A DNA stretch of 64,000 nucleotides, from positions 55,402,583 through 55,466,582 of the forward strand of contig NC_054740.1 in NCBI RefSeq assembly GCF_018143015.1. The letters are read 5' to 3'. The DNA is from Lytechinus variegatus (taxonomy: Eukaryota > Echinodermata > Echinoidea > Temnopleuroida > Toxopneustidae). A model generated the notes under the pieces. That model did no database searches. It was not told the origin of the DNA and saw only the letters and a program-made list of their open reading frames with translations. Both the position numbers and the translations under genes were made by a program. Positions 5,247 through 46,387 of the stretch are shown piece after piece (within the stretch, counting starts at the first letter, position 1; each line of letters begins with the position of its first letter).

Positions 5247-6390
5247 ATACCGATGGGTGGGGGCTCGGGGCGCTCGGGGACCAATAAAAAAAAATAATGA
5301 CCAAGAAAACAAAAGTGGAAAGGAAAATAACAGAAAACATAAAAAGTGAAATACGATATCATTTTCTAAATATTATATCATTATATCAATTTGAAATCAT
5401 TCCTCTTACTGCGCGAAGCACGGAAGCTTAAAACATTTGAATAGCTAACATAAATTATACAATTATGCCTATACCTTGCATGGTCACATCAGATTTGAGT
5501 GTAAAAGTTTATCCACATTAAATTTTGTCAACTCCAGTCGTAAAACAAAGTAAAGAAAACGGGTAAACTATACAGGAAATAAAAAGGCCCTATATCCTCC
5601 TTTCCGCGAATGGCGTTGAAGCTCTGATTTTTAAAATCTGAAACTTCTGTTCTAATTTCTTAGATTATATATACTGTAACTCGATTAAGAAGAAAAACGA
5701 GCTCAAATGTGAAAGGGATGATGCAAGCTAGAAGAGGGATTTTTCCTTTCCCATGCTCGCGAAGCACGGAAACCTCTGTGATTTATTTTCGAAGAAAGAA
5801 AATCGCTCACATTAAGCGCCTTCTTTTGTTTGATTAAGAAAGTTCAGTGATAGGCCCTATTCAAATTTTCAGGATGGATGTGCAGCGATACAGAATAAAG
5901 TTTAAAGTCGCACACTAGCTGTTGCATATAGCACGGCACGAATTTAATTCTTCCCCATTTGAGCAGATGCTTTAATTTACCAAAAATTACTTGCTGAAAT
6001 TAAAGAGAAAGAAATAACATTTGGGGACTCGGCGGTTTACCCGCTCCGAACAGAACCAAAAAATAATGCAATTTAAAAAAAATCGTACTCTTTACACCTA
6101 TATGTATACTTTACAATTTCTGGCAAGAATATAGGATTCCCACTGCTGGGAAGGGGAAAAAACGGAGTAGAACGAAGGTGTGGGAAACAAAAGGAAGCAA
6201 ATTTTTTAGCATGAAGAGAGAATATAAGTCTCGTATATAGGTTGTTAGAAACAACAAAAGCGATACCTTCCTTCCCTTTTCTACTCTCGCTTTTTCTTTT
6301 TCTCCTTTTCCCCTTCTTTTTTTTCCTTTTTGGGAGCGTGTGGGGGGAGGGGGGGGGGGCGACCATCCCCTGGCTACACGCCTCGTAGAA
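5247..6390. mobile_element. Probable degenerate member of the GCGAGC-array element group
   Basis: Left end near CAGTGGCATACCGATGGG. The right side has a long pyrimidine tract (6270-6340), a G-run and then ATCCCCTGGCTACACGCC. The same order of parts occurs in the clearer members at 18340-19470 and 41207-43341. Only two decayed array motifs (GCGCGAAGCACGG near 5412 and 5757) remain. Confidence 0.45.
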
Positions 6391-18234: not shown

Positions 18235-19889
18235 CGGTGGCGTAAATCCGTGTTGATGGGTGGGGGGATGATTGAAACATTTTAGTATTTTTTTGCAATC
18301 ATGTTTTAGATTTGCAAGGAATTGTCATTGATATGTCCACAGTGGCGTACCGTGGGTCACGGAATTGTGGGGGCACCAGCAAAACTTTTGAATCACTGAG
18401 TGATCGAGCGCGCAGCCAGTTATACTGACCTAATAGAGACATTTTAAGGACAATGTCATTAAACGGATATGTATCTTACTGATCAAATAATGCGAGCGCG
18501 AAGCGCGAACTTAAATTTTTTATATTCACACCTAAAAAGGGACATTATAATCAAAATGTGTGTAATCATGATAGGTACCTGTCTCTCTAAACAATGCGAG
18601 CGCGAGCTGAAATTTTCCTTTATTTTGACCCCAAACATCCAAGATTTTAAGGAATATATTTTAGGAATCCATTAAGAGTATGCACATCTCACCATAGTCA
18701 TCTAATGCGAGTGCCAAGCGCTTGCTGATTTTATTAGAATTACATCTGAACACATGAAACACTTTTTGTAGTCATTGCAATCATGATTATCATACGCATC
18801 TCACTAATCAAATATTGCGAGTGTGATGCGCGAGCTGAAAATTTAGACCTGAAGTGGGGCATTCTAACGTTTCTTTGTAGGAATTAACTAGGACCATACG
18901 TATTTCATTAACAAAATGATGCGAGCGCAAAGCGCGAGCTGAAATTTTTTTATATTCAGATCAGAAGAATGGACATTTTAAGGACTGATTTTAGGAATTC
19001 ATGAAGAGCAGACATATCTCACCAATCCACTAATGCGAACGTAATCACGGACAGGAAATATTTCATATATACGAAGACCTTAACATGGGGCAATCACTTT
19101 TTGAGTCATGTAAAATAAGCATATGTCACTACATAAAACAATGATAACTCAAGTGGTAGGAAATATATTTGGTTTATATTGACTTGAAAACGGGATGTTT
19201 TAGTACAGCAGGATTATATAAACAGACAATGCGAGCACCAGGAACAATGAAGACGTAGGTCCTGGGCAAATTATGTTTCATGAATTATGTTTCTTATGTA
19301 ATGTAACATAACATAATTATAATATAACATTATATTGAATATTTTCTTCTTTCCCACTACATTTCTCTTCCTTTCTCCCTCTTCTCCTTTTCCCCTTTTT
19401 TGTTTTGCCAGCCGATGGGGGGGGGGGGAAGGGGGCTTGTGCCCCCATGCCCCCCATAGTTACGCCACTGTATGTCCATATGGCAAATACCCCTCCAATA
19501 TTATCCTTTTACCCCATAATGGTTTAATGGTTTTATTAGAGATTACAGTAAAAAAAAAATCAACATTCCATCTTAATCCCTTCCCAAAGACCCCAACATT
19601 GAATTGGAAGAAACGGGGGTTTCTCTTCAATGTTATAATAAGGACATAAGTATTTCGTTTTGAAATGGTGAACTGGCTCTTTATTTGCATTTTATGATTC
19701 AATAATATTTTTTCATTTGTTAAGCGGTATTTTAGGAAGAATTTTCACCAATAAAACAATTATCTCACGTGATTTTTTTTCATTTTTTTCGTTAAAAAGT
19801 GGGGGGGATGTTTGTACAGGCCATCCCCCCTCCTCGAAAAGTGGGGGGGGGGGATATGTCCCCCCATTCCCCCGGGATTTACGCCAGTG
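18235..19889. mobile_element. Outer hAT-like element, host of a second element
   Basis: Ends CGGTGGCGTAAATCC and GGATTTACGCCAGTG, flanked by the perfect 8-bp duplication TACAATAC (18227-18234 and 19890-19897). Without the nested element at 18340-19470 and its extra 8 bp, it is about 515 bp and non-coding. An 8-bp duplication with C(A/G)G-type ends fits hAT transposons. Confidence 0.85.
18340..19470. mobile_element. Inner hAT-like element with GCGAGC motif array
   Basis: Ends CAGTGGCGTACC and TACGCCACTG, flanked by the perfect 8-bp duplication TATGTCCA (18332-18339 and 19471-19478). About seven motifs related to GCGAGCGCGAAGCGCGAGC occur every 100-115 bp (near 18402, 18490, 18593, 18703, 18815, 18918, 19030). 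A pyrimidine tract and a G-run precede the right end. No transposase. Confidence 0.88.
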
Positions 19890-20037
19890 TACAATACAAA
19901 CTTAAATTTTGAACTCTTGGCTCCCCATGATTTCTAATTTGAATCCTCTATAAATGGATTGGACAAGTCTTTTTCAATCATATTTCTGATCTTCATTTGC
20001 ACATTTCTCTGTAATTATACATTTTCCTGTAAAATTC

Positions 20038-20086
20038 TGAAGAAGATTCTGCTAGGATCGAAAGCTTAGGCCCCTTTTGACTCTCT
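20038..20086. mobile_element. 49-bp insertion with an 11-bp target duplication
   Basis: The segment from TGAAGAAGATTCTGC to CCCCTTTTGACTCTCT is flanked by TGTAAAATTCT on both sides and matches 3204-3252. This is the footprint of a heavily 5'-truncated retroelement insertion. Confidence 0.7.
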
Positions 20087-20485
20087 TGTAAAATTCTTTG
20101 GCAGATATATTATTAAAATTATTTTTGTATGATTTTGTGAAAGTTTTGTTCAATTCTGTGAACATTTCATTTTCCGCTTTTCCCAGTACCAGAGCTTATC
20201 TTCACTATTTCACATGCTGTGTGGGTGGAAAACAAATAAAAATACACAACCAAAGCATGACCAAGGTCTCTACGTGATAGCTTTTATTTACAACTCAATC
20301 ATTTGTGATCTATTCATGAATACTTTGAAAGTAAATTGCGCCACAAAATGTCACAAGACAAAACAAAACATTAATGATTAGAATGCTTGAATTATTAAAG
20401 AAACATTAATGAAGACTCCAAAGCCTCATAGAAAAGTAATCAATAATTTGTTGTGTCACTAAGTCATTGATGCTGACACATTGCT

Positions 20486-21019
20486 AGGCCCCGTCTTACA
20501 AAGAGTTACCTCAACTACATAATGGAAATCCATTATTGTCAAAATTTTTGCCAAGGGATATTTGTCCATAATCCACAATGTCCATATTGTAAACAAAGAG
20601 GGGAACATCCAATTTCCAACGATGAATGTAGAAGTGAGAATCATATCTAGGAAATATTTTGAACAGGCATTGTAGATGGCTGGCGTTGCCGGCCTTCCAT
20701 CGTAGGTGTTGATCTGGGCCCCGTCTTACAAAGAGATACGATTGATCCAATCAATCGTAACTCTTTGGAAATCCATCAGCATCAGAATTTTTTTCGACAG
20801 GAAAACTGCAAAATGTCCTTTGTAAACAAGAACACACCAAGTTATCAAGTAATCAATGAATTTATGGATATACATTCATATCTAGAGAAATTTTTGAGCA
20901 AACGTGCATTTTATATGTTGACTTTGCCGGCTTTCCATAGCTGCAAATGATAGGATCAATCACAACTCTTAGAAAGACGGGCCCCCTGATCAATTACAAC
21001 TCTTTGTAAAACAGAGCCC
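20486..21019. mobile_element. 'GTCTTACAAAGAG' MITE copy b, split by copy c
   Basis: The left part 20486-20715 starts GGCCCCGTCTTACAAAGAG; the right tip 20986-21019 ends ACTCTTTGTAAAACAGAGCC. Copy c (20716-20985) sits between them. Confidence 0.75.
20716..20985. mobile_element. 'GTCTTACAAAGAG' MITE copy c, inserted in copy b
   Basis: GGGCCCCGTCTTACAAAGAG at the left and ACTCTTAGAAAGACGGGCCCC at the right give near-perfect outer arms. About 270 bp, non-coding. Confidence 0.85.
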
Positions 21020-21020
21020 A

Positions 21021-21118
21021 GGTAGGGGTTTCGTAAAGCTGTTTGTAGGTTAAGAGCGGCTTTAGAACGACTGGTGAACCTTTCTTGAGGATGATATTCA
21101 CCATTAAATGTCCACTGA
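21021..21118. mobile_element. Half of a 'TTTCATAAAGCTG' MITE
   Basis: GGGGTTTCGTAAAGCTGTTTG followed by GAACGACTGGTGAACC; the right half is absent. Confidence 0.7.
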
Positions 21119-22293
21119 TAGAAAACCCCTATTGCTGTATACAGATTCAAATCACTCTCCAATCTAACACCAATATGACTCTGTGAAAAAAAAGGTTCGG
21201 AAGTGAATATCACTTAAATTCTCTTTACAAACACAATCCTTTGAGGAATTATCATTTCTAAAATGATATGAACAAATAAAGATAAATGCCATATAAATGG
21301 ATTTATAAAAATATTTTATGAATGCAACTACAGATCTATATTAACATTTCACTGCTTTGTATGAAACATCATACAGGTACATGTAATGGATTTTATAACC
21401 ATATTCCCTGTGACCACTCTATTAATCAGATCCATGTTTATTATCTAAATGTAAACTTTTACCAATTTATCAATACCTAATTGAATTACATCACATTTTC
21501 CCCTTTTTACAAATAATATTTGTCTTAAAATAAATTGGGATATGGGGCACAAATCCTAATTGAATTACATCATATTTTCACTTTTTACAAGTAATATTTG
21601 TCTTAAAATAAATTGGGATATGGGGCACAAATCCTCAATTAAATAGAATTATAATGGGTTAAGCGTCATTCTAAGTTTTACTTCGACATGGAACAATTTT
21701 TAGCCACCTGGGACAGCTAAAATATGGGCAGACAATGAACATTTACAACAAACAATGAACAAATCAAAGTCTATGAACTTCATTCAGTTCACCGTATTTA
21801 TAAGTATTGGTAAACTTAAAGCAAAATGAAATATTCCTTCAACAATATATAAAATATCAAATAAAATTCAGAGTTCAAAACATAAATTAAAGAATTCTTG
21901 TTTAATCATATGAAGGGAGCTTGATAGCTTTGCATACTTTTTTCAGAAATGTAGACATTGTCATTGCACCAATGCATTAGAGTGTACTCATTTTCAAATA
22001 GAGAATAAGGGCTATGCAGAATGAAATTTGTGTGCATGGAGACTGAGCATGCACCAATGCAGACTTGAGTCTATGGAAAACATGTGTTATTTGCAAAATC
22101 ATTTGGCCTCCGACGGGATTAAAATATGGTTCTACAGATTTCTTGAAACAGACAAAAGAATTGCTTATTTCCCTGTGAGCCGTGATAAATCTCATTAGCT
22201 GGTGATGTAAATAGGGATTGGAAATCAAGTTAAAAATTTCAGTCATAGAAATTTCACATGGAAAAGACACGCCAATGAAACCGACCCCAGTCG
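21119..22293. repeat. AT-rich spacer with an 81-bp tandem duplication
   Basis: Two adjacent copies of an 81-bp unit (about 21480-21560 and 21561-21641), both containing ATTTGTCTTAAAATAAATTG, differ at a few sites. No gene seen in the rest. Confidence 0.75.
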
Positions 22294-22461
22294 GGTGGGT
22301 GTTTCATAAAGCTGTTCATAAGTTAAGAGCGACTTTAAGAACGACTGGTGATCCTTTCTTGAGGTAAATGGTATACACATTGGCAACGGTAAGCGTGTAA
22401 GGTTCACCAGTTGTTCTTAAAGTCGCTCTTATCTTATGAACAGCTTTATGAAATGCCCCCC
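22294..22461. mobile_element. 'TTTCATAAAGCTG' MITE, first of a side-by-side pair
   Basis: GGGTGGGTGTTTCATAAAGC to GCTTTATGAAATGCCCCCC, with GAGCGACTTTAAGAACGAC inside and its inverse in the right arm. Confidence 0.85.
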
Positions 22462-22465
22462 GATC

Positions 22466-22639
22466 AGGGTGGTGTTTCATAAAGCTGATCGTAAAGTTAC
22501 GCACAACTTTACTAACGACTGGAACATGTTCTGATACGTACTCAGCTACATAGGGATATATCATATAGCACAAGAAAGGGTCACCAGTCGTGTGTAAAGT
22601 CTTTCGTAACTTACGAATAGCTTTTATGAAACGGGCCCC
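22466..22639. mobile_element. 'TTTCATAAAGCTG' MITE, second of the pair
   Basis: GGGTGGTGTTTCATAAAGC to GCTTTTATGAAACGGGCCCC. The arms differ from the first (GATCGTAAAGTTACGC), so it is a distinct subfamily member and not a recent tandem copy. Confidence 0.8.
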
Positions 22640-23200
22640 TGAGCTAATATTTCAAATGGCATATCTGTTGGTTTTGATTTGTTAAGACTTGCTGTAGCAC
22701 AAGATAAGATCATTTCACATTGCCAAGTTAAGTCAACGTTCTTCGTGCAATAGTTGATTTAATTCAATTAAAATGAATACTTTATAAATAATATGTTCCA
22801 TTTAAATCGTGATCTCACAAATTAACTTTTCAGAGCACTTTACATAAATGATAAGGAACAGAAAAAAATATATAATACTACATGTAAAGTTTAGAGATTA
22901 AAGATTATTATCAAACTACACCCATGAAAGCAGTTTAACCTTGTGAAACACATATTTCATGAAAATGAAAAATATGGAATTGGAAATATGTCTCTGCCAA
23001 TTGCCAGTAAACAACTTCTATGTTTCTTCCCCATAAAGAGCTCAATAAGCTTCCAGAGTCCTGTAACACAAAGTTAGAAATTAATTGTACGCTCGATTTT
23101 CACGATTGATTGTACATTGTAGTCAATGGGATCAATTGCAGAAAAATGATCTATGATCATTGCTAAGCTTTGTGTTTGAAAGAGGTTTGAAAACAGCATG

Positions 23201-24094
23201 AAAGGGGAAGTTCACAATAAGTTGGTTTTGACAGCAGAAAATTAAAAAAGTAAAACAGTGAATGTTTCATGAAAATTCCTCAAAGAATAAAAGGGTTGTG
23301 ATTTTTTTTTTTGAAGTTTTGATTTTGTGACATCACAAAAGGGCAGCTCGTCCAAATGTTATGATATAAATTCCCTAAAATGCCATTTTCTCAAAAAATT
23401 GGAGTGATTTTAGTAAACATATCTTTCAATACATCATCTCATACCCCATTCAGTAAAAAATATTTATATTCCTCATTTTCCATTAAAAAGTTGAATTTGT
23501 GGAATTTATGTGACACGATTCATGGGGAGGGTACTTCCATATGATGTCACAAATCTTAAGGACACCGCACACCTTAAGACTGTTCGCGATCCGATATTGG
23601 AACGAATCACATTTTGCTAATTTTCTGAAAATGTGAATAGAAATACATCTTTATTTGAGGTTGAAACTAATTGAAAGAATAATACGATGACCATTATGAA
23701 AGATTGCAAGCCTTTATTTTGGAGTAAAGGCAAAATTAGTTTAAATCGTAGCCAATCGTACGACTGCTGTGACGTCATTACGACAATGTATTAAATTCGG
23801 TTTTATTCTATGAAGGATGATAGCATAGTCACAGATTTGAATGTAAGTATTTGTATGATGATTTAGAACATTACACAGTAAGATACTTAAAGTCTCAATA
23901 TTAGCATCAAAATTTACTATGTTTTATTCCAAAATCGAGTCGCAGACCGATCGTAAGGTGTGTGGTGGCCTTAAAGCTTAAAAAATCATTACTCTCTTAT
24001 TCTTAGATGGACTTTCCTTAGACTCACCATTTTTTTAATCATTTCTCTTGGTATTTTCACAAACAACGTTTCTTCAGGGTGAACTTCCCCTTTA
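23201..24094. mobile_element. AAAGGGGAAGTTCAC-ended element with a nested TTAA MITE
   Basis: AAAGGGGAAGTTCAC at the left and GTGAACTTCCCCTTT at the right. The right side is followed by TTAA-like sequence, the left is not. The centre is interrupted by 23560-23970. Confidence 0.7.
23560..23970. mobile_element. TTAA-flanked MITE with CACCGCACACCTTA ends, copy A
   Basis: TTAA at 23556-23559 and 23971-23974. Ends GGACACCGCACACCTTA and TAAGGTGTGTGGTGGCC. Same family as 59102-59513 but in the opposite orientation. Confidence 0.88.
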
Positions 24095-24104
24095 ATAAGC
24101 AACC

Positions 24105-24264
24105 AGGGGGGCGTTTCATGAAAGGACTTGTCGGACGTTTTATCTGACAAGTCCCATTTTATCCGACAGTTACCATAGGAACAGTGCCTCTCAGCCAATC
24201 AAAATCATGGAAAGATGTCAGATCTGACAACTTGTCGGATCAAAATATTGATGAAACGCTCCCC
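24105..24264. mobile_element. Short palindromic MITE with GCGTTTCATGAAAGG ends
   Basis: GGGGGCGTTTCATGAAAGGA to TTGATGAAACGCTCCCC, with TTGTCGGA(C/T) and ATCTGACA arms. About 160 bp. Confidence 0.75.
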
Positions 24265-25939
24265 AGAAGACTTACTGTTTATTTTCTATTCAATACACTA
24301 CATGGCTCATAAAGCCAACTTAAATTAACTATCATCCCTGCATTGGAAATAAACAAAGATCTCTCAATTAATGCATATTTACTCATAACAGGAATAAAAT
24401 TTATGATATTGTACAAAGAAAATTAAATAAGAAGACAAAGGAGAATAATCTACAGATAATAATTATTTTTCAACGCTAAAACATATTTATATAAATCAAT
24501 AAACTTTATAGACATCAGCCATTTTAAATGGACAATTTCCTACCTAACATGCACTATAAGAGCATTAAGAAAATATAAATCATGCTGGTGATATATTCAT
24601 TCTCTAACAATACCAGTGATCGATCTCGTGTTAGAATCTAATTCAAAATAATCACATTCCTTGATAATTCATTTCATTTTCTCATTAATTCTCCTTCCTT
24701 CTCACATCCATCCCTCTATCCTTTATTCATTTTTAATCAATTCTACTTTAGCTTGGCAACTTTGGACAATTATAATTTCATATTACAGCATTCATATCCA
24801 TTAGAAATTGAGAAATAATATTCTTTGTTATTTATTCTGTATTTTTTTAATCACATAGTAATTTGTTACCAATGCGAGGATTTGTTTCAAAATTATGGTT
24901 TTGGATACATACTTTATTAAATTTTACTTGCACTTGCATACGAAATAAGGGCAAAATATTTCAAATTCAGAGGAAAACGGTTGCGACCTTTGAATAAACA
25001 ACACACACAAACATGTAAAAATCATGGATTATCCAAAATGAGATGATTTTTTATGAATCTTTTATATTTACCTACTTTTATAGAGGTTTATGCCAAGGAA
25101 TGTAATCAGTGAAGGACAACAAAATATTGTTATCCCGAGATAAAGTTCTCGTTATTTCATTATCCATAAAGATTACATTGCTGAAAATTGCCTGTCAATA
25201 TGCTCAATCACAAATCCATCAAATTTTAGGACTAGGCCTTTTGATCTTTGAATATTCACAATATTGAAATATCTCAAAACAAATGAGATTTATTGTGACA
25301 CTTTTTTTTCCACTGCCGGTAATAAAAATATTCGGCACACGGAAAATAATTATTATGCAAATTGGAAACGATAACAACCATGGCAAATTAGTATACAAAC
25401 CAACAAAAATGGTGTTACAGAAAATAATGTCAAAAACAGTGCCATAATTCTTTTGCAATACAGAGATATTTGACGATATCTGTGAGGGCATATCAACCAT
25501 AGCATCATTGGATATCCCAATAGTGACATGCTTGCAGCATGAATATTCAAAATATTCTAATTCTTCAATACTTTAAACCATGAATATTCAAATTGTTATA
25601 CCTAGTCCTCATACTTTCTATTTTCTACACTTTCCATTCGGGTTTAGACCATATATCAAACTAATCCCATTTCATAAATATTTGAGGAAATTTCTCTTCA
25701 CAATGAGAGAATTAATTCCTTTGACCTCTGATAGTAAACAAACACTGAACATTGAAGGAACAAAACCATGTATCATTTAGGATAAGCTATCTTCAGCTGT
25801 CAGGATGCTTTTTTTCAAGCAACGTGCTGTATGATGATTGCTTCGGATATACCTTTCCTCTCCTATGTTGCGTACAGTAAGGACTAACAGTCTCAATTAG
25901 GTTATTTCATTTGCAATGTCTATGATGAGAGTCTGTTTC
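24265..25939 (-). other. AT-rich flank downstream of GORASP, probably including its 3' UTR
   Basis: No coding or repeat structure recognised. The part nearest 25939 must include the GORASP 3' UTR. Confidence 0.4.
25289..25294 (-). promoter_or_regulatory. Candidate polyadenylation signal for GORASP
   Basis: TTTATT on the + strand reads AATAAA on the minus strand, about 650 bp past the GORASP stop. It is a reasonable first signal, but other AATAAA-like hexamers lie further on and the real 3' end is not visible. Confidence 0.25.
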
Positions 25940-28900
25940 TTATGAAGACGGTGCGGAGGTAGCCGGCAGCGGTGACGTGCCGATTCCGGCCGGTAAGGTA
26001 GGTAGGGGCGTCGGCCCTGGTATTGAGATTCCTCCGGGCAGACTGACGGCTGGAGGAGGGGGCAGGTTTGAGACCGCAGGCGACGATGCTCCGAGCGAGA
26101 CGGGGGCGGGCAATGCTCCGAGCGAGACGGGGGCGGGCGATGCACCAAGAGAGACGGGGGCGGGCGACGCCCCGAGAGAGATGGGGGCTGGAGACACCCC
26201 TCCTATCGGGGCGGGGTTTAGAGGTGATGATGTTGTGGATGTGTTGAGAGCAGGGTAGTTGGAAAGATTGACCGACGGTAACGAGACATTGATGTTGGGA
26301 AGTCCCGGCACATTGGCTAGACTGACTGGTGGTAGCATACCAGAAACTACAAAAGATAAGGAGAAATATTCACATGACATGATGAAAAAACAATGCAGAT
26401 TATTCTGGATTCTACTTTGTTATCGAAGACATGTACATGCTCATTTGAACTAAGATAAGAAATAGCTTCTTTTAAATTTCATCAACAGCAATCATTCGGA
26501 AAGTTGATTTGAGTTCAAGTGGAGATCATATTTTGATAAAGAGTCTTGAAGAAATGTACATCAAGAATTCAAGTCACTCAAAATCAAATAGACATAATAT
26601 ATATGAATGCACAGCCTACATAAGATTTGATAACTATGCTGATATCAATTTTCAGGAGCAACATATCATGTTTGGGAAATCACATGTACACCGAGTGAAA
26701 CAACTTCTGCAGGAAAATGGAACTCTTAAAACCAGATCAATTCATATAGAGGAGAAAAATCAAAGCAACACATAAATAAAGATTTGAATGATTATTGAGA
26801 TAACTAATGCTATGTAGATCCTCCACTTGGCAAGATCTGTGATGTTACACAAGCACAACTTCCCCATTACTTTAGTACACATTTCTCCTAAATTTTCTCT
26901 TTTATCTAGTCCATCGCAAAATCACCTTTTCTTTTTATGGGAAGACATATACTACAGGTTTCATAACATGACATCATGGATGAATCGTTTGTCCCATCAT
27001 TAGAGTGAATATAAAGAGTTTTCTCTAAGTATACTTTCAGTGTCCAAAGGGGAGAGATCTGATATTGGTTGCATTGCCAATGGCAGGATCTCCATAGAAT
27101 TAAGTGTTCACGACAAACATATGGTTATAACCTTCTTAATTGTTTGTCCAATTTTACTCAAAACTTCATTAATTCCATTCTTTCATTTTTTCTATTTTCA
27201 CACAGGCTATTAAACATCTTAAATGGCCCGTATTCTGAAGTTGGGTTTAACTTAAACTCAGGTTTAAAGTTGTGGTTCAAGTATGGATAGCCAATTGTTA
27301 CATAAATCACTAACGGTCGAGATATCATATTTCAGCTCATTTGGCTCTCAAATCATTCATTGTCTTTACCATCGATGAATCAGGAAAGAGCACAGTAAAC
27401 ATAATAAACATAATAAAAATTTTGACACTTTTGGCTTCCCATAATTTTAGCACAGAGTTAGACCATGGTCTAAGTTAAACCTGGCTTCAGAATACGGGCC
27501 AGTGGGTTGAATTTTCCTTTAAACTTCCACTAGTTAAAAAGATGACACAGTTTCTATTGGTTGAAGGTGTACGAGAGATGAGATAGCTTACTTGGTCCTG
27601 AAAGTGGCGGCGGAACGGAGGCACCAGACGGAGACGCTCCCGGGGTCACATCTAGGTTGAGGGGAGGAACCGCTCCTCCCACGGGACTCTGGTACAAGGA
27701 TGATGTTCCTGTCGTCAGGGGAACCGTGGTCCCTCCCCCAAGCATTGCTGGAGAGGGCGTGGTGGCATTCAGATTGGGCTGGGCAAGCGGTGAGGCTGCT
27801 GCTGCTGCTGTGACCCCAGCGGGTGTGGCACCCGGGGCAGAGGGCGTGGCTCCTGGTGTAAGAGCAAGGTCCGCCATGCTAGTCTGGAGACCAGCCACTG
27901 AATTAGAAGGAGTGGAGGCCAGCGAAACCTGTAGAGAGAAAATAAATCTAGTTATACCAATGACAATCAACATCAACCAATAAAATAAACAAGGGTTTGA
28001 GAGACCACAGATGAAAATAGCTGAAATTGCAAAAGCCCCTATACAGAACTGTACAAAGTACAAAAAAGTTAAAAGTAAAACGTGAAAATAGCTAAAAACA
28101 GCTAAAAAGATTGATTCTCACATGCCTCAATTAAGAAAGAAAGTAAGACAGGAATTACAATGTTAAACTTATCTGATGAGTGACCAAATACCATTATCAC
28201 AAATGCATTGACTTTTTTTACAAACTTTCTTTTAATTAATTAACATGGGATATTCATCATCTTTGGCTCAATATTTATTAGTCCAAATGTTGAAATTTTT
28301 ATGAAAAATAACCACAAAATAAAAATGCACATGTTGCAAAATTTAAATGATCTGATCCTTCAAATTTCAAGTTTTAATAACATTTAAATGTCAACCATGG
28401 AATTTCACTGGATATTAAAAAATGTCTCTGACATTTTAGTCACAATGATAAATCGCATGTCTGAATTTTCATGCTGCTATACAAGGCATACCTCTGAAAA
28501 TCCATCAGGTGGGGGTGCAGTAGATTGATCTCCTGCGGCTGCTGCTGCGGCTGAAGCTTTCAAGTGTGCACTGATATCGATACTCTGACCTTCAGGGAAC
28601 GACCTTGTGGGTATCCGGTGAAGATATCCGTAGCCAATACCACAACCCATGCTATAAGAATCAAGAGAAGAAAAAGAAAAGGTTACTGGAAGAAGTTGCA
28701 GTAATAACTAATTCCTACTTTCATGATTTGCGCCATGATTGGAAGGGTGATCCGAGTCATGTAATAATCAGGGGGGGGGGGGATGAGAGCCTATTTGACA
28801 GACATGTATCTTTAAGATAGAAGAGTAATACCCACCTTCCTTCTCCTCCCCAATTCCTGTTCGGTGTGATGGTGACCTCTCTACATCCATCCGTTTCCAC

Positions 28901-31900
28901 ATTATACATGTACAATTTCAGAGGCCTGCCCTCGTGTGACTCGATCAAGGAGAACAAGTCTTCCGACTACAATAAGAAAAAAAAAATTGGAGAAAAACAA
29001 AGTTTGATTTCTAGCTTATAACATAATTCAACAGAAAAACAAGAATACTTGTTTGGGAGAACCCGGTACAGATTACATAATGTTGTTTTTATTTCTGTAA
29101 GATTAAAAACAAAATCATATAAAATTACAAATCGAATGTACAGGTAAAAGTTGCGGCTGGTAGCTTAATTCAGCTACAACTATAATTGTTGCTGCTGGTC
29201 TTCCATGGGGACAATACATTGTATAAATCAAGATAAAATGTCATATAAATTAAAATATAATCGATTTGATAATGATGCAATGAATTACAAAATAAAGTAA
29301 AACAAGTGGAATGCCTCTGGCCGTCTCACCTGCATAACGCGATTCAACATAGCAGCAGTGCTGACTTTGAAAACTACTATAACTCCCACAAGATGTTCAG
29401 TGATACTTGGTTACTCTTATTTCCACGTTTTATGAACTAGACAAATACACTTACAGAAATAGGATGGTAATTCAACAAATACCCCCAATGTGGCCAAATT
29501 TCATTGACCTCACATGACCTTTGACCTTGATCATGTGACCTGAAACTTTCACAGGATATTCAGTGATACTTGATTACTCTTATGTCCAAGTTTCAAAAGT
29601 CAGATCAATAAACTTGCAAAGTTATGATGGTAATTCAACAGATACCCCCATTATGGCCAAAGTTCATTGACCTTTGACCTTGGTCATGTGACCTAAAATG
29701 CGCACAGGATGTTCAGTGATACTTGATTACTCTTATGTCCAAGTTTTATGAACTAGACCAAAATACTTTCAAAGTTATGATGGTAATTCAACAAATACCC
29801 CCAATTCGGCCAAAGTTCATTGACCCTAAATGACCTTTGACCTTGATCATGTGACCTGAAACTTGCACAGGATGTTCAGTGATACTTGATTACTATTATG
29901 TCCAAGTTTCATGAATCAGATCCAAAAACTTTTAAAGTTATGATGGTAATTCAACAGATACCCCCAAATTGGCCAAAGTTCATTGACCCTAAATGACCTT
30001 TGACCTTGGTCATGTGACGTGAAACTCATGCAGGATGTTTGGTGATACTTGATTAACCTTATGTCCAAGTTTAATGAACTAGGTCCATATATTTTCTAAG
30101 TTATGATGACATTTCAAAAACTTAACCTCAGGTTAAGATTTTGATGTTGATTCCCCCAACATGGTCTAAGTTCATTGACCCTAAATGACCTTTGACCTTG
30201 GTCATGTGACATGAAACTCTAATAGGATGTTCAGTAATACTTGATTAACCTTATGGCCAAGTTTCATGAACTAGGTCCATATACTTTCTAAGTTATGATG
30301 TCATTTCAAAAACTTAACCTCAGGTTAAGATTTGATGTTGACGCCGCCGTCGGAAAAGCGGCGCCTATAATCTCACTCTGCTATGCAGGTGAGACAACAA
30401 AACAAAACATGGCAAAACAATGAAAAAATAAATCATATACAAGACTAACAAGAAGTATATAGCGTATTACTAATTCTACTGTGTTGGAATGCATGATGAC
30501 AAAAACCAAATATCATTCATTTAAGTAGATGCATCAGTGGCATGGATATTTGAATATCACTGGGATACTGTGTAGATCTACTTCATACTTACTTCTAAAA
30601 GCACCGAATCGGCTCCGATGATGTAGTCTGTATTTGCTCTGAATCCTGCTATCGATGCAGGGGAGTTGGGTTGCACATCCTGTTCAAACAAGATTGGATA
30701 TCAAAATCAATGAAGATGAGACTTCTTTTCATTTTACCTTGAATAGTAAACATGTCCAAAAGATGATTATCAAAGTATTGGAATTTTTAATATTTCTATT
30801 ATTAATACTGGATGAGAGAACTCTTCTTACAGGTTATGATTTGAAAAATACAAGTCATAATATGTTAAATATGTTAAATAGTTTTGTGTATTTGTTTACC
30901 ATCATTGAATAAAAAGCCAAGGGTAAGAAATATAATGCAAGTTCTTTACAGATCAATCTTAGGTAATCTGTGATTGCTTATTTGGAAGTAAAATAAATGT
31001 AAATACAAGTTTGAAAGAGAATGTGATATGCAGAAAGTAATAACATACCGAATCGATGACGTCAGTTGCCATGGTGCCCTGGCGGCCTGGTTCTAAACAA
31101 ATGAACCCTGAATGAAAGTGTGTATTTCTCAAAGGAGAAAACGGCTGCTATCAGAATGATTGCTTGCAACCTATTTTTCAAACGAACCAAAATGTGTACA
31201 GATGATCGTCAGGTTCAAGTCTTTTTAGAACCAGCCCGCCATGACACCATGGCAACTGACGTCACACTTGGGTACTCTATTGGAACTGTTGCATTGATCT
31301 ATTACTTTTCTTATTGTTTGTATTTAAACTGGGTTCCACAAGAAAGTGATCAAACTTTTACAAGGGCACTTGGAACATTCCACTCAGTCAAAATGAACAA
31401 TACATTTTATAATAATAAAAGTCATTTCTTGTATAGCGCATAACACATTCTGAATAACGTCTCTATGCGCTTCCAAAGGACTTGGATATTATTACCCTGG
31501 CTGTAACTCAAGCAGCTAGCTTGCAGCGCTCGGCATTTCAAGGAATAAATTCCTGCCATAAAAGGAATAAATTCCTGCCATAAAAGGAATAAATTCCTGC
31601 CATAAAACCCATTCACCTCACCTGGGTTGGGTGCAGCACCATAAACTTCTTGCGGAAGGAAACTACGCCATGGCTGGGATTTGAACCCACGACCCTATGT
31701 TTCAAAGTCCGAAGACTAATCCACTGGGCCACAGCGCTCCAGCTCTCATTCACACAAGCTAGCTTCAACAATGTTTACTAACACATGTCACTAATTACAA
31801 GATTGGTTCGATCACAGAGAGGAAGTTGGCAAAAATAAAGCCAAATGAAAATGAATGAACTTCCCAGTTTACTACATGTCCTACACAGGCATGTTCGAGT

Positions 31901-37932: not shown

Positions 37933-38998
37933 CCTTAATGATTCGAATTTGATTTTACTAGAATTTCGTTACAGATCAACTGAATATTCGTCGATTCAAC
38001 ACATTTCCTTGTAAAAGAAAGATGTTTTTCGTTGAAATGCCGCTGCGGATGGAAATCTTCTCCCGGCAAAATTTACGTGGCAATCAAATCAGCAATGCAA
38101 CATGGGACGGTTATATGGCAAGCCTATACGTCCATAATTTAAACCACTGATATGCATTCTAAACTTCATTCACCCCCCCCCCCAAACTCAAAATTGAAAT
38201 ATTGATCTTAATTTCACAGACGAGATCATACTCTGAGTCAAGTTAACTCTAACACTGAAAAATTCGAAAACTTAAAATTAATTAGCATTATCATTATCCC
38301 CTATATTATCACTGTAAATAATGTGACTGATAATTTATAGAGCGCACTGCGCCATAATTATTTGAAGTTGTTTTCCTTTGGTTTTTCACCGTGTATGGTA
38401 ACAGTTGGAAAGAAACTTATAGTTAATAAATTCGAAATATCATCTTCATGATGATTGAACTAGCTCATTAATGTAAAAGGATATAGGGATCGAATAGTGT
38501 CTGATTATATCTGCAAAATTGAAAATAGCAAATAAATGAACAATAATCACGAATGTAGAGTGATGTATTGAATTATGTGAAAGATTATATCTAATGCACA
38601 TTATAATGAAAAGAAACTTTGAAATAGTAATTTATGGAATTTACTTTTAAAAGGGACATAACGACATTTTCCCAGTTTCAAGTAGAATGATGTTACATTC
38701 CGCGTGTTGGACACAGATGAGATAAAAGAGAAAAAGAGGTAGTGCATTGCAGTTCCAACAAAGTTTATTTCCAAGTATTCTCCAAATGTTCGACGCAAAC
38801 CTCACGTCTTTGCCATATATATATATAATATTTGGGATCCCAAAATATGTCTTTATTTAAATGAATAGTTATTGAAAGAAAAAATTTACCTGGGTCAATA
38901 CTACGTACTCCATTAATAATAGATGAATATGGGTTTTTGTAATTATGGGCATTTGGCTTGCCATAGATTGTTAAGCTGGTACGCGATGATGAAGCTTC
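37933..38998. other. Upstream region of GORASP
   Basis: The first 170 bp should hold the 5' UTR and promoter on the minus strand; no TATA box is evident. The remainder is AT-rich with no gene or known repeat recognised. Confidence 0.35.
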
Positions 38999-39019
38999 GA
39001 ATGATTATGCCCATCCCCC

Positions 39020-39436
39020 TTTCGGAAAATTGCCCATTCGTCTACTACCCGGCTACTACCAACTCGTCCACTCACCATAATGGTCTACTGTCATTTAGTC
39101 TAATGCCATTCCGTCCATCAACATTTCGTCTAACAACCATCTGGTCCACTAACCATTTGGTCGATCCAATCATCATTTCTGTCGATGACCATTTTGTCTC
39201 ATAACCAGTCCGTATAGGTCTAATATAATATCCATTTCATTTTCATTCATTTTGCACAATTTTCCAGACCAAATGGTATATGGACTAAATGGCTATTGGA
39301 CCAACTGGTTACTAGATGGAATGGCATTAGACTAAATTAAAATAGGCCATGTGGTGATCGATGTGGACGAACTGATGGTAGACCAAATGAGAGTAGTGAG
39401 TTGGCAATTGGACGAATTGGCATTAGACGGATTGAA
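39020..39436. repeat. Foldback field of 'ATTTGGTCYAATGCCATT'-like words
   Basis: The left half strings together TGGTCTACTGTCATTTAG, TCTAATGCCATTCCGTCC and similar 15-20 bp words. The right half has their inverses (GGAATGGCATTAGACTAA, GGTAGACCAAATGAGAG). Both halves are degenerate tandem strings, making a large imperfect hairpin. Confidence 0.75.
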
Positions 39437-39934
39437 AATACCCCCCCCCCCCCTTTCGAGGTCTTGTGTACTCGCTGAATCGCGTATATAGCCGTTTTAG
39501 ATGTCAAACAAAACATTTGAATTAACATGCTATTATTAATCATACTACTTCTACCGGGGAACTAATAAATATGATCACATATATGATGGTAATATTTTTT
39601 TCCGCCGTCAATTCGGCCATGAGTTGAAAAAAGGAGTTCACGATAAGACATATTGATACTGCACCAAAAAAAGGAACTTATAATCCAGGAACATCGATGT
39701 GCAGCTATGGTTTACCAAATTAAATGTTGATATAGCAGGAAACGGAACATCCTAAGGATTTCTTTCTTCTTTTTTTTTTTGATAAGATGTGTATCTCAAA
39801 TAAACAAATAAAACGAGCGCGAAAAGCAAGATTATATTTTTATACACTGACCTGAAATTGAAATGAACATTTTCAGTACTGTTTGGTTTATAGGAATTAA
39901 TGAAAATTGGGGTAGATTTATTATTTACGTTCAA

Positions 39935-42900
39935 CATTTTTTTTTAAATATAATCAAAGTAACAATACATATTCTATATAATAGATAAATACAGACAAAT
40001 CAATGAAATTTCGTAACAAATGTTGAATATAAATTAAACAAAACTACAATTTGTTGCAGTAATTTTATCGATGAAAAGAAACAAGAAATGAACGGAGGGA
40101 CTTGCCAAGAAAAGCAAAAGCTTGTAGAGAGGGCAAGCCCCTAAACTTAGTTTCAATACTAATTATAAACAAACTAAATACAACTATATACATAAATCGA
40201 GACGGACACAGAAGACAAACTTAAAACAAGTAATCCACAAATATCAAAATAAAACGAAAATAAGCGACAAAAAAAATACAGTGGTAACACAAAAAAAAGT
40301 ACTTACAAAAATATATTAGGGAGGGAAAAGTGGCAAAGGAAAGAAAGAGGGAGATACGGGAGGTGCAAATAAAAAGTGCAAATGAAAAGAGGAACATGGC
40401 AGGGTGCACAGGTCGTAATGTATTGTATCATGTTGAAGTGTTGTTGTTTTTTTTATAAGTAAAGCTTGACAAATTATTGGTAGTTAAAAGTTCAGTTATT
40501 ATGTAGTTTTAGTTTAGGTTATGTGTTAGTTTGAGTGGTTGGTGTGGAGTATTGACAAATGAGCATCTTTTTATGTTTGCGTTTAAAAATATTAAGGTTT
40601 GTAGATTCTTTAAAGTCGTTGGGCAGGGATACACAGGTCCCCCCAAAAAAGAGTTTTTCGCTATAATAGTACGGGTAGGGGGTAGATGATAACAGTTACG
40701 TTGTCTCGTTGGGTAATCGTGTATAGAGGAGTTTTTACAGAACATATTTGAAAAAAATTGTTGGGAGATCACCTTTGTTTAGTTTATACATAAATTGGGC
40801 GAGTTGGAAAAGATATAAATCGCTCACTTTAAGAATATTACTTTGGAAGAATAGTATATCTGTGTGTGATCTGAATTGGGTTTGAAAAATTATTCTAAGA
40901 GCCTTCTTCTGCAGCATTTTTTTTAAATTGTGTTTGAAAAGCACAACCCAATGCCAAAATGCCATGATTAATGTATGGTAATATTAATGTATGATACAAT
41001 GTAAGTAAAGTGTGAGATGGGAGAAAATATTTGAGTTTGTTGATAATTCCGATGTTTCTTGAAATTGTTTTGCATATATTATTGATGTGTGGTTTTCATG
41101 ATAGCTTATTATAAATAGTAACCCCCCAAAACTGGTCTCTGAAACATTTTCAAGAACAGTATTATCAAAAATTATGTTATCAGGTATTGTATTTATTCTG
41201 TTACTACAGGGGCGGATCCAGCCTTCGCCAATAGGGGGGCCCAGAATTTTTTTTTCAGCCATATTTTCCCCGATCGGCCACTCGAATATGATATCTGCCG
41301 GGATTTTGGGTTTCTTTAAAGGGGTAGTCCTATTAGTCACTTCTTTGCTTTATTCTTATGAATAAACATAAATATATAATACCATAATCATTATTTATAT
41401 AATGCGAGCGCGAAGCGCGAGCTATTTTTTTTGGGGAATCTTATGTACTTTTTTCAAAAAGTTTTTTTAACATTCTGGGCAATCCTGAAAAAAGATAAGT
41501 ATGCAAGTGAATAATTATTACGAACGTGAAGCGCGAGCAGAAATGAACTGATGGAAAAGGTACTGTTAAGGACTTGCTTGCAGTTAGCCATGAAGATGTT
41601 ACATATTTTAAATAATCAAATAATGCGAGCGCGAAGCGCGAGCTGAAATTTTTTGACATGTTTACCTAAGGAATGGAAATTCTAAGCACTTTTGTAACTT
41701 AACATAATAGGTATATAACTAAACGATTGGTGCGAGCGCGAAGCGTGAGCAAAAAATTTTGTGATTAGACCTACTGAACGAGACACACTCTTAAGGTTTT
41801 TGTAAATCATGAAAAGGATGAGGAAGTGGGGATCTTCCTTACATTAATAATGCGAGCGCAGAGCGCGAGCGGAAAATTTTTATATACGTTTTGAGCTGAT
41901 CGAAAACGTATTTGTTATGGACTGCTTGAACTTAGCCATGAAGACGTTACATTTTATTTCAACATTCAAATATTGCGAGCGCGAAGCGCGAGCTGAAAAT
42001 TTTTGACATTTCTACCTGAATAATGGAAATTTTAAGCACTTTTTGTAATCGTGGAAACGATAAGACAAAAACTGAACATTATTGATGCGAGCGCGAACCG
42101 CGAGCGGAAAAATTCTGGACACTCTATTCATGTTTTGTAAATCATGAAAAGGTTAAGCTATTCGAAATTTTCACACATTAATAATGCGAGCACAAAGCGC
42201 GAGCAGACGATTTTTTTATATTAATATCTGAAACTGGATAATTATTTGAATGGAGAACAAGCTGCGCAGGTCTGAATAAACGTGTGTTTGAGATATTCGA
42301 CCTAGAATTTGGGTACTCTAAATACCTTTTTTTACCATGAAAATCAATAAAGCGAGCGCAAAGCGCGAGCTAAAAATATATGATATTCAGATCTGAAAAG
42401 GGGTCACTTTAAGCTCTGTATTGCAAGCACTTTGTGGAAAAATTGTGAGGTGAAAAAGGATAACAGTTAAAACAGAGCTGATATTTTCAATTATTGTTGC
42501 TTTGAGTTTGACATAGGACCGGATATTCTATAAGGACATTATGTCATCATAAGAAAATGATGACTATCTTCATATTTCTCTTCCTAAGCATGAGAGCGCA
42601 AAATCTATTAATATTATGGCCTAAAAACTGGACATTTAAAGCACTTTTGTAATTATGCATAAGATGCATGAGTTTAAAATCTATCAATGCGAGCGCAAAT
42701 CGCGAGCAGAAATTTATGATTGTCATCAAATGGTGATTTTAAGTAGTTTGTTTTAGAATTAATATTGAGATATACATAACTCACTAATCAAAATGCAAGC
42801 GTGCAGCGCTAGCTGATACGTTTTGACAATCTGACCTAAATAGGGATATTTTGAGAACTTCATGGAATACAGGAAAATAATAGGTAACTGACAAATTAAA

Positions 42901-44200
42901 TTTTGTGAGCGCGCAGCGCAAGCAGAAATTGGTAATATTCAGACCATAAAACAGAAATGTTTACACTTTTAAAAATCAATTTGTAAATAAAACAAAATAA
43001 TGAAAGTTCAATTTCCCAGCTGAAATATGTTTTGTATATTGACTTCAGAATTTGATATTTTAAGGTCCATATTGAGCAAGATATCACCTAAAAGGCAATG
43101 CGAGCGCAAAGCGCGAGCGAAAATTTTATATCCCGACATGAAAGATTAAAAAAATAATTTCCAAGTCTTCCCCTTATCTTATTTTATTCACTCATCTTCC
43201 TCCTCTTATGCTTGCCTTCCTTCTTTTCTCCTCTCTTTTCCCTTTTTCTTTTTTCCTTTCTTTTCCCCTTTTTTTCTTTTTTTTTTGCTCCGCCAATAGG
43301 GGGGCCCGGGCCCCTCGGGCCCCCCCCTGGATCCGCCTATGTATTTATTCTGTTACTAAAAAGCATAGAATTCGTCTTTTGTAAGTTAAGTGATAGTTTA
43401 TTCGCCTTAATCCAGTCAGTGACATGTATGAGTTCTGAGTTTACAATTCTTACAAGTTGGTTTACGTTATCATGAGAACAGAAAATGTTCGAATCATCAG
43501 CAAACAATACAAATGTTAGTAAATTTGAACCTTTTTAATGTCATTAATATATGTAACAAAAAGAAGAGGACCAAGTAAACTACCCTGTGGTACTCCACAT
43601 GTAATAGGAAGAGTAGAAGAAACAACGTTGTTGACTGACACAAACTGAGACCTGTCTATTAGGTAGCTCTTGAACCACTCCAAGGCATTCCCCTTGATAC
43701 CATAAAAAGAAAGTTTATGAAGAAGTATTTCGTGGTTAATGGTATCGAAGGCCTTGGAGAAGTCCAGGAAGATACCAACAGTATGACAACCTTTATCTTA
43801 TCTGTCCATAGCAAGAAGTAATTTTATTAATAAAAGTCAAAATTGCATGCGAGGTGCTATGATTTTCACGGAAACCAAATTGCGAGTTCGAAAAAGTATT
43901 GTATTTATTAAAGAACGTAGTTGTACGAGTATGTATAAGTTTTTCGAGAATTTTAGATAACGAAGTGATCAATGAAATAGGACGGTAATTAGAAACAAGT
44001 TGATTATCACCTTTTTTGTAAAGGGGATGACTTTGGCTATTTTCATTAGGTTAGGTACCTTCCCTGTGTTCATAGAAACATTAAATATGTGGACCAGAGG
44101 ATCGACGATAGTTAAAATAATTTTCTTAAGTAGGAAGTTCAGGGTACATATATATTTTCATGAAGAGCGATAAAATCATTTTCATTTAGACCTGATGATA
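39935..44200 (-). mobile_element. LINE retrotransposon (CR1/L2/Jockey-like), 5'-truncated, split by another element
   Basis: Minus-strand reverse transcriptase blocks are recognisable: NYRPISL (near 43990), [20 protein letters not shown] (about 43735-43790), [11 protein letters not shown] (about 43567-43600) and FADDSN (about 43495). Downstream of the insertion at 41207-43341 the C-terminal region appears: LQKKALRII with HTD..FF..NILKVSDLY (40735-40965), then HDYPTRQRN. A 3' region of about 0.6 kb contains GGGCTTGCCCTCTCTACAAG. Several breaks mean it cannot be active. The clade is not fixed by eye; the tail motif fits CR1/L2-type elements. Confidence 0.88.
41207..43341. mobile_element. 2.1-kb GCGAGC-array element inserted in the LINE
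   Basis: Ends CAGGGGCGGATCCAG and CTGGATCCGCCTATG. It is flanked by TATTTATTCTGTTACTA on both sides (41190-41206 and 43342-43358; one more matching G makes 18 bp). Inside, about 14 motifs close to GCGAGCGCGAAGCGCGAGC recur every 105-130 bp in one orientation, usually followed by a (T)GAAATTTTT stretch. A pyrimidine tract (43200-43290) and G/C runs precede the right end. No transposase frame. Confidence 0.88.
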
Positions 44201-44785
44201 AGGAGAAAGCACTTTTGGTAAAAAAAAAAAAAGGAGACATGTTTACTTCGATCTATCCTTTCAATTTCCCTTCTTTGCTATAATTTTGTTTTTTATTGAC
44301 AAAATCATGAACAAAGACTAGGTAGCTATTGAGGGCGTAAATATTCATATCTGAATGACACGCGCCTCAAAACCCAAGATAACAACAACAGCTTAATTTT
44401 TTTTACCATCGCTCCTTGATTCATAATTACTTTTTAAGGGGTGGGGCGACTAGAATTATTTTACCTTTCACGCTAGTACTCTCGATCTGCATATTAATTT
44501 ATTTTCTTCTCCCTCTAGTTTTAGCCCAGGAACTTAAGTTTCAGGCCTTCAGGCCTTATTATCAACAAATTCCGCGCACTCATTGGGCTTACTAGATTAA
44601 TAAATAAGATAATAACATTTTCATGAATTACTTATTCCTAATAACTGAATTGTCTCCCCTTCAGAATGGAATATTGACAAGTTTCATATCGCGCTCAGGA
44701 ATATAGGAATAGGAAGATAGCCATCATTTTCATATAATGACACAAAGTCCTTAATGTCTCGGTCCTGGGTCAAAATGATATTAAA
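44201..44785. other. Spacer, no gene recognised
   Basis: AT-rich sequence between the LINE and the next array element. No terminus or coding pattern seen. Confidence 0.35.
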
Positions 44786-45743
44786 ACAAATATCAGCTCA
44801 CGCTTCGCGCTCACATCATTCATCACGTGCGATTCACATCCACTTCACAATTTTCCTACACAGTGCTTGAAATAGGGCTTAAATTGACCACTTTTTTAGA
44901 TTGGAATATAAAATATTTTCAAATCGCGCTTCGCGCTCGCATTATTGATTTGAAAAGTTTTTTTTAATGTATCCAGAGTGCTAAGATTGCTAACATGCAC
45001 GCATATTTTTTGAGATATGCAGCTTGTTCTTTACTTATAACGTGCTTTAATTATCCAGTTTCAGATGAGAATTTTTCTGCTCACGCTACGCACTCGCATT
45101 ATTAATGTGGGAAGATACCCAATTACCCATCCCTTTCTTGATTCACTAAACATGAATAAAGTGTCCCGTTTTGAAGTATGAAATCTCATTTTTTTTCGCT
45201 CGCGCTTCGCGCTCGCATCAATTGTTTGTTTAGTTACAGACGTATACCTACCCATTCATGATTACAAAAAGTGCTTAGAATGGCAATTTTTTAGGTCGGA
45301 ATGTAAAAAAAAAGTCACTCGCGCTTCCCGCTCCCATTATTTAATTGCTGAAAGATCGTCTTCTTGGCTATGTAAACCCTCCTGAACATGTCTGGGTTTA
45401 GTTTTAAAATTTATGCTCGTGCTTCACTCTCACAGTGATTATCCAGTTACATTTCCCAGAATATTCGATTTCCAGGACCAAATACATTAAATTTCTTTTT
45501 TTAAGATATAGCTCGCGCTTCGCGCTCGCACTATTTAAATAAGGCTTATATGGGATTATCGCATATATGTAGTTTTATATGAATAAAGCTAAAAAGTACA
45601 GACTACCCCCCTTCAGAGAAATAAATTTAAAAAAAATCTCTCAGCTCTGAGCGGCGGATCGGGGGGGGGGGGGGGGCCGGGAATAGGTGAAAAAAAAATC
45701 GCCCCCCCCCCCCATCGGCGAAGGCTGGGTCCGACCCTGGGGT
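44786..45743 (-). mobile_element. GCGAGC-array element, minus orientation, one end lost
   Basis: On the minus strand it starts CAGGGTCGGACCCAGCCTTC, followed by GCCGATGGGGG, a GTAGTC..TTTATTCATA stretch and then the array, the same order as in 41207-43341. Seven motifs are seen near 44794, 44923, 45078, 45200, 45318, 45414 and 45512. The other terminus was not found. A G-run of about 18 lies at 45661. Confidence 0.8.
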
Positions 45744-46147: not shown

Positions 46148-46381
46148 CAGGGGCGGATCCATGATTTCCGAAAGCCGGAGGCACATTTTCCCGAGGAAAA
46201 TTTTGAAATGCAAAAAAAAGGGGGGGTTAAGAAAAAAATTTCTTTGGGAAAATGTGCCTCCCCTTTCAGGGGGGACTTCTGTTTTAACTACATTTGTACA
46301 TTACAAATTTTAATTGTGCCTCTCAAGGGGGGGGGGGGGCACGGGCGCGGCCGGCTATACCCTTTCCCCTCGATCCGCCTG
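46148..46381. mobile_element. Short CAGGGGCGGATCC-ended MITE
   Basis: CAGGGGCGGATCCATGATTT at the left and CTCGATCCGCCTG at the right, with possible TAA on both sides. It shares GGCACATTTTCCCGA with the element at 2359. About 234 bp with a G-run near the right end. Confidence 0.8.
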
Positions 46382-46387
46382 TAATTG

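Follow-up and report, generated by a model that had tools for sequence, protein, structure and literature searches.

A one-way array of a CpG-rich motif in putative non-autonomous hAT-type transposons of Lytechinus variegatus

Transposases of the hAT superfamily read subterminal repeats through zinc-finger domains and treat the two ends of an element differently, as described in the sections of the reports that we draw on (PMC10368747, PMC3143072). In particular, the BED domains of Hermes are described there as binding subterminal repeats asymmetrically (PMC10368747), and the transposase of Herves, an active hAT element of Anopheles gambiae, as binding a short subterminal motif (PMC3143072). 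The excerpted accounts of Galileo report that its repeats hold extra transposase-binding sites (PMC4079207, PMC3688188), and those of the hAT5 group give 5-bp target site duplications (TSDs) for its members (Kapitonov & Jurka 2007, cited in PMC12730594; PMC9004415). Here we describe a window, that is, the whole 64,000-nucleotide stretch analysed from Lytechinus variegatus (assembly GCF_018143015.1, contig NC_054740.1, positions 55,402,583 to 55,466,582), in which transposons carry a 19-bp motif with five CpGs (GCGAGCGCGAAGCGCGAGC) many times over in one orientation. Since hAT transposases read subterminal repeats, and do so unequally at the two ends, we read this array as a multiplied subterminal site. 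With a probability of roughly 0.55, the carriers would be non-autonomous hAT-type elements in which a subterminal recognition site has been multiplied into a one-way array under several end types.

Within the window, the motif occurs 21 times at up to 3 mismatches, and every match falls in 18340-19470, 41207-43341 or 44786-45743, which bears out the initial annotation in describing these three as carriers of a periodic, one-orientation motif; 100 dinucleotide shuffles of the window gave no match at this threshold. At up to 6 mismatches the three elements hold 4, 13 and 7 copies, respectively (those of the last on the minus strand), and four weak matches with 5-6 mismatches lie outside the named elements. 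The window as a whole has a GC content of 36.6% and a CpG observed/expected ratio of 0.65. In the genome (869.6 Mb in 33 contigs) the exact motif is found 7,467 + 7,098 = 14,565 times, and 23,956 + 23,068 = 47,024 sites, about one per 18.5 kb, are found at up to 2 mismatches. The motif read backwards, used as a control, gave 986 + 901 exact matches and 17,881 + 17,148 at up to 2 mismatches, numbers that are too high for a control, since the motif comes close to being a mirror repeat and reads almost alike in both directions. We therefore used in its place the shuffles, which cover the window only, and an estimate of motif density away from motif-chosen loci, taken from the genome-wide counts and from hAT-centred loci totalling 57 kb, in which 9 sites occur at up to 2 mismatches.

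Orientation and spacing were sampled in 20 motif-centred 10-kb loci together with the window. Adjacent motifs no more than 400 bp apart have the same orientation in 168 of 169 pairs, and the spacing has its mode at 110-119 bp (52 of 168 pairs). The motifs form 39 clusters of 1 to 26 motifs each, and in 27 of these one or more element ends were recognised, inside the cluster or no more than 700 bp away, with end probes derived from families in these same loci. Both ends were recognised at 12 clusters, only the plain end at 11, only the end that bears a run of G at 4, and neither at 12. In L015 one end seems to point the wrong way; it probably represents the right end of the element itself, whose sequence is similar to a plain-end probe. 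The view that the arrays are an ordinary satellite occurring without element ends, which the initial annotation had named as the alternative to watch for, is thus mostly contradicted by the 27 clusters with an end nearby, as against 12 with none.

One such element is a complete non-coding transposon of 2,135 bp at 41207-43341 (plus strand), which we call family C. It begins with a plain end, CAGGGGCGGATCCAG, and finishes with CATAGGCGGATCCAG followed by the G-run at the other end; between them lie 13 motif copies in one orientation (41404-43118, plus strand, 0-4 mismatches), and a pyrimidine tract, a G/C-run and the terminal repeat occupy 43166-43341 on the same strand (left limit set by eye). 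When the element was searched against the genome and 40 of the 8,703 first-look candidates were scored, 46 match rows resulted. In 35 of them the match covers 2,078 or more of the 2,135 bases; these are the window copy itself and 34 others at 93-97% identity, and the pairwise identity among seven copies (the window and six of those 34) is 97.7-98.7%. Family C is, in other words, a recently amplified non-coding transposon family. The ten next-best copies have a 5-bp TSD that is flush with the ends in nine cases and offset by one base in the tenth. The window copy is flanked by a 17-bp direct repeat, TATTTATTCTGTTACTA, at 41190-41206 and 43342-43358, which is atypical among family C copies. In addition, an array subfamily with family C ends (L009:3223-4768, L011 and L027) has a higher-order block of about 332 bp that comprises three motif units, and this block was expanded inside the element.

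A second non-coding transposon, family B, spans 1,131 bp at 18340-19470 (plus strand), with ends CAGTGGCGTACC / CAGTGGCGTAAC, an 8-bp TSD, TATGTCCA, at 18332-18339 and 19471-19478, and four motif copies at up to 4 mismatches. Like family C, it has the pyrimidine tract, G-run and terminal repeat that had been noted in the two best-delimited elements. Near-full relatives of family B are found at 82-94% identity (40 scored of 5,624 first-look candidates). In a sample of ten such relatives, for which rows stopping short of the ends were passed over, the same outer sequence lies on either side in all ten, because family B sits within an outer mobile element at 18235-19889 that has its own terminal inverted repeat (TIR), CGGTGGCGTAAATCC / CACTGGCGTAAATCC, and its own 8-bp TSD, TACAATAC. 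The family B duplication is exact and flush in five of the ten, exact with a one-base offset in one and has one mismatch in three; it is absent from one relative, in which the left junction is short of a few bases. The outer element of copy L075 starts at the same base as in the window copy and has a different flank. The outer element thus received an insertion of family B, after which the two were multiplied as one unit. Other family B copies, in L021 and L022, stand at other sites with duplications of their own, and at L028:5291-9669 a self-similar array of more than 4 kb, in which short units repeat in tandem at multiples of about 26 bp, directly adjoins a family B element.

The 20 motif-centred loci yielded further end families. 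Family A (L017, L019 and L026; ends CAGTGGCGTAGCTAGG) has 8-bp duplications, with one mismatch in L026, and consists of a C-like core in new ends, with a relic of the family C plain end about 104 bp inside; its G-run-end stretch is 72.8% identical to that of family C over 213 columns. Family D (L025; ends CAGGGGCGTCGATCC) has an 8-bp duplication with one mismatch, family E (L023; ends CAGGGGCGGAAAATC) has an 8-bp duplication and encloses a family C element, and L015 holds a relative of family C with a 5-bp duplication. Wherever an end pair is bounded by a duplication, the motifs run from the plain end towards the G-run end (14 of 14 rows), in a scan that would have listed the opposite arrangement too. 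The 14 rows include three copies of a transposase-encoding family, H (see below), and the family E row, in which the enclosed family C element accounts for the motifs. L010 and L013 represent a single insertion (98.5% identity across 6.7 kb) whose GGGGG duplication is uninformative, which leaves 12 rows informative on TSDs.

Sequence divergence within and between elements bears on whether the motif was under constraint. Between units of the family C consensus (9 of the 13 units, those with the next motif 80-135 bp on), the motif is 86.7% identical and the spacers 52.0%, against 44.0 ± 1.5% for shuffled spacers. Among the seven family C copies, whose differences all arose after amplification, changed sites number 18 of 1,723 in the motif and 74 of 10,204 in the array spacers (Fisher p = 0.18, with sites treated as independent, as in the test that follows), a trend that runs opposite to motif conservation. 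Moreover, the CpG sites of the motif changed more often (13/745) than its other sites (5/978; p = 0.016). The initial annotation's statement that the motif is kept while spacers diverge is therefore true between units and fails between copies. Dead copies show no constraint on the motif, and it was the source lineage that kept it. That the motif is functional in every copy is rejected by this absence of conservation after insertion, which led us to the reading that it is functional in the active lineage. The pattern would fit a cis-acting site needed only by the active element, whichever protein binds it.

Several features place these elements within the hAT superfamily, as far as sequence criteria allow. 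TSDs of 8 bp are seen in families H, A (three copies), B (three), D (one) and E (one), with one mismatch in L022, L025 and L026, and families A, B, D, E and H have short TIRs that start with CA(G), of the CAGTGGCG / CAGGGGCG type. A transposase with the dimerisation region was found only in family H, and no transposase gene was seen in families A-E. Family C appears to fit the hAT5 group by the length of its duplication (5 bp, flush in nine of the ten other copies). The earlier suggestion that no named family has this layout was thus too strong, since the elements fit a known superfamily. Transib elements also have 5-bp TSDs, and their termini begin with a CACWRTG-like heptamer; they match family C in duplication length and differ from it in the termini, which are CAGGGGC and CATAGGC. 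A foldback element is likewise rejected, since the TIR is only about 15 bp long and there is a single array in one orientation.

A profile search of the genome for the hAT dimerisation region (PF05699) found 187 candidates; scoring of 150 of them yielded 63 matches, and the six regions examined represent five families, L077 and L081 being copies of one. Of particular interest is family H, which is 5,483 bp long, an extent set by comparing L076 with three further copies. Its termini read CAGTGGCGGCACCA; a G-run stands directly at just one of them, and the 8-bp duplications of the copies are CCGATCGG, TTCAGAAC and CACTCTCG. L076 contains an 862-amino-acid open reading frame (ORF) with a DUF4371 domain (PF14291, 64.1 bits) and the dimerisation region (PF05699, 34.8 bits); a Cys/His pattern is visible by eye, zinc-finger matches are sub-threshold (E 0.038, 0.13 and 2.1), and a comparison with solved structures gave no match at E <= 0.1. 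In family H a single motif is present at up to 6 mismatches. It has 2 mismatches, lies 107-125 bp from the plain end and obeys the plain-to-G-run orientation; from the density estimate, a motif at up to 2 mismatches in one orientation within 150 bp would occur by chance with a frequency of about 0.4%, uncorrected for the five hAT families examined. In addition, family A finishes in an 83-bp stretch with 79% identity to the G-run end of family H (E 1.9e-12, a value flattered by the G-rich sequence with the low-complexity filter off).

Copies of family H (40 scored of 1,076 candidates) comprise two near full length, with one motif each, and 38 that are internally deleted; in 37 of the 38 the plain-end match spans the motif position, and the remaining copy, C12, matched only from base 209. 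The initial annotation had proposed looking for an autonomous copy with a transposase next to such arrays, and what this check turned up was a transposase-encoding hAT family with one motif and no array. Of the explanations it had offered, arrays of transposase-binding sites are the best supported, as a transposase-encoding element with the same end layout has one motif near its plain end, and by analogy with the described systems the motif is probably a transposase-binding site.

We suggest the following course of events. The elements have short CAGTGGCG/CAGGGGCG TIRs and asymmetric ends, one plain and the other with a pyrimidine tract and G-run, and the 19-bp motif most likely started out as a recognition site in subterminal position, immediately inward of the plain end. 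Once copied within units of about 110 bp, this site would have given rise to the one-way array, so that one end might bind a transposase, or a partner of it, at several points; the opposite, G-run end would function through its TIR. The same array core has also come to lie beneath different ends, through insertion of one element into another and the subsequent spread of the composite.

A number of observations weigh against this proposal. That a protein binds the motif, which transposase mobilises families A-C and that mobility rises with the array are points that we infer. No transposase is linked to family C, for which TSD length and TIR likeness suggest hAT5 membership, and the window copy has a 17-bp duplication in place of a 5-bp one. 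Family H has only one motif and a TIR unlike those of families A-C, and no copy was seen with both ends and an open transposase frame: L082 has both ends and a broken frame, and L076 has an open frame and is missing the terminal 13 bases at the G-run end. The motif at up to 2 mismatches occurs in only one of the five hAT transposase families examined; L078, L079 and L080 have none at up to 5 mismatches in the sequence examined, in which the element ends were not located. The apparent hAT element at L077:1430-4900, whose ORF encodes an 830-amino-acid transposase, is bounded by CAGAGATGCCAAC and has GTCTAG as a shared 6-bp flank; palindromes rich in GC occur 58-97 bp in from one of its termini and resemble the motif only at 5 mismatches (the look-alike lies at 78-97 bp). 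Also, 12 of the 39 motif clusters have no recognised end, five of them being single motifs, the end-pair scan with its 14 of 14 rows had no shuffle control, and the array fills most of a 2.1-kb element, reaching deeper than the subterminal repeats of Hermes or Herves. As to the surroundings of the L077 family, L081 is a partial copy with stretches 99.7% identical, and a tandem repeat with 163/192-bp units at 29381-30341 of the window resembles a repeat that surrounds L077.

The proposal has to be weighed against others that accept the transposons and explain the array differently. The one to which we give an appreciable, though minority, weight is that the array is neutral filler, a passenger minisatellite that spreads by unequal exchange and binds nothing, its apparent motif conservation reflecting homogenisation or the history of the copies that were amplified. 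The variation in array length (1 to 26 motifs per cluster), the expanded three-unit block of about 332 bp and the absence of motif conservation after insertion all speak for it, as does Tetris, whose published description, in the part drawn on here, shows that tandem repeats in transposon ends can become satellites (PMC4079207). Homogenisation, however, should level whole units, whereas the spacers stand at 52% and the motif at 87%; the five CpGs change faster in dead copies, so that their retention across units needs a cause; and the one orientation holds across several end families. Replication slippage, another of the initial annotation's options, meets the same difficulty in that by itself it fails to explain motifs conserved across near-unrelated spacers, although one subfamily did expand the 332-bp block. 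A bolder extension of the recognition-site reading, which we regard as rather unlikely, is that the array is a portable mobility cassette that adds transposase-recruiting sites inside other hAT-like elements, so that the composite outcompetes its parent. If true, it would explain three composites, namely family A, family B inside 18235-19889 and family C inside the L023-type element (flanks similar to the latter surround family C in L020 and L024), as well as the occurrence of related array cores under ends with 5-bp and with 8-bp duplications.

The motif could instead be bound by a host protein of the CXXC or zinc-finger type that maintains an open or transcribed state of the element in the germ line, with the spacing of about 110 bp perhaps suiting nucleosome phasing. 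Five CpGs in 19 bp stand out in a window of 36.6% GC and a CpG ratio of 0.65, and the faster change of CpGs suggests that dead copies are methylated, from which an unmethylated active copy would differ. A host-bound module, however, need not be one-way relative to the element ends, as the motif is in all 14 rows, and we consider this unlikely. Least probable of all, and in our view a very long shot, is an array driven by DNA structure, in which a GCGC-GAA-GCGC mini-hairpin promotes slippage or is itself read by a recombinase. The sequence GCGAAGC forms an unusually stable DNA mini-hairpin, it is contained in the motif core, and the predicted fold is a 4-bp stem with a GAA loop. This fold is no better than that of shuffles (z 0.24), and among 239 distinct motif copies 28 changed both sides of one of the four stem pairs, only 2 of which still pair; a hairpin is accordingly disfavoured as the conserved feature. 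Outside the stem, the pair 2-18 shows nine double changes (6.1 expected by chance), seven of them still pairing. These double changes, seen in L009-L028 and the window, are perhaps one inherited variant.

Other features of the window complete the picture. The third motif carrier is a truncated, older relative of family C on the minus strand (44693-45739), with its plain end at 45739 and seven motif copies; no G-run end was found for it. It had been delimited as 44786-45743, and its similarity to family C of about 68% extends to about 44693. A claimed fourth member at 5247-6390 (plus strand) is rejected, as it has no motif at up to 6 mismatches and resembles family C only in a pyrimidine-tract stretch. 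The shared architecture put forward in the initial annotation thus stands for three transposons, one of them truncated, and does not extend to the probable fourth. A short stretch at 46148-46383, bordered by CAGGGGCGGATCCATG and CCTCGATCCGCCTGTA, could be a small element with ends of this type as well, and a perfect 22-bp tandem repeat (3.1 copies) lies at 31540-31607. Among the 60 longest open frames listed, many of which are low-complexity pyrimidine/purine frames, no transposase was recognised by eye (the frames were not Pfam-scanned), and a coding repeat is disfavoured.

These findings bear on why some transposons that lack genes rise to copy numbers in the thousands although their source is rare. 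One genome holds tens of thousands of motif sites, a transposase-encoding family with a single motif and gene-less families with many, and this coexistence makes the idea that more binding sites at one end bring more amplification directly testable. Also, composites of nested transposons are shown here amplifying as new units.

Gene-less hAT elements, subterminal repeats and tandem repeats in transposon ends are all known kinds of feature, and each of the closest described systems shares some of them with these elements. Family C resembles hAT5 elements, as far as the excerpted accounts describe them, in its 5-bp TSDs and CAG...-type ends (PMC12730594, PMC9004415), and the 6-bp GTCTAG of L077 has the TSD length given for hAT6 (PMC12730594, in the part used). 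Herves, in the sections of its report that we draw on, is likewise a hAT element with asymmetric ends and imperfect tandem repeats of about 100 bp at one end, starting 146 bp in; it differs in having three repeats, a transposase gene and the motif CG/AATTCAT (PMC3143072), whereas here there are 13 motifs in the window element, a CpG-rich 19-mer, no coding capacity and thousands of candidate copies. Hermes, as described in the corresponding sections, shares multiple subterminal sites arranged unequally between the ends, but its repeats are 4-bp AAGT sequences clustered at the tips, to which binding was demonstrated, while for the 19-mer it is suggested by analogy (PMC10368747). Tetris and Galileo, in the excerpts available, also carry tandem repeats within transposon ends, placed in long inverted repeats at both ends (PMC4079207, PMC3688188), in contrast to the single array, single direction and short TIRs seen here. 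In the literature searched no paper contains the motif text, and among papers on sea-urchin transposable elements, hAT repeats and tandem repeats inside hAT elements none plainly describes the array; the elements may already bear names in Repbase. As far as this search reaches, the new feature is the layout: a conserved 19-mer rich in CpG forms a unidirectional array that fills the element, and this array recurs beneath several kinds of ends, some with 5-bp and others with 8-bp duplications.

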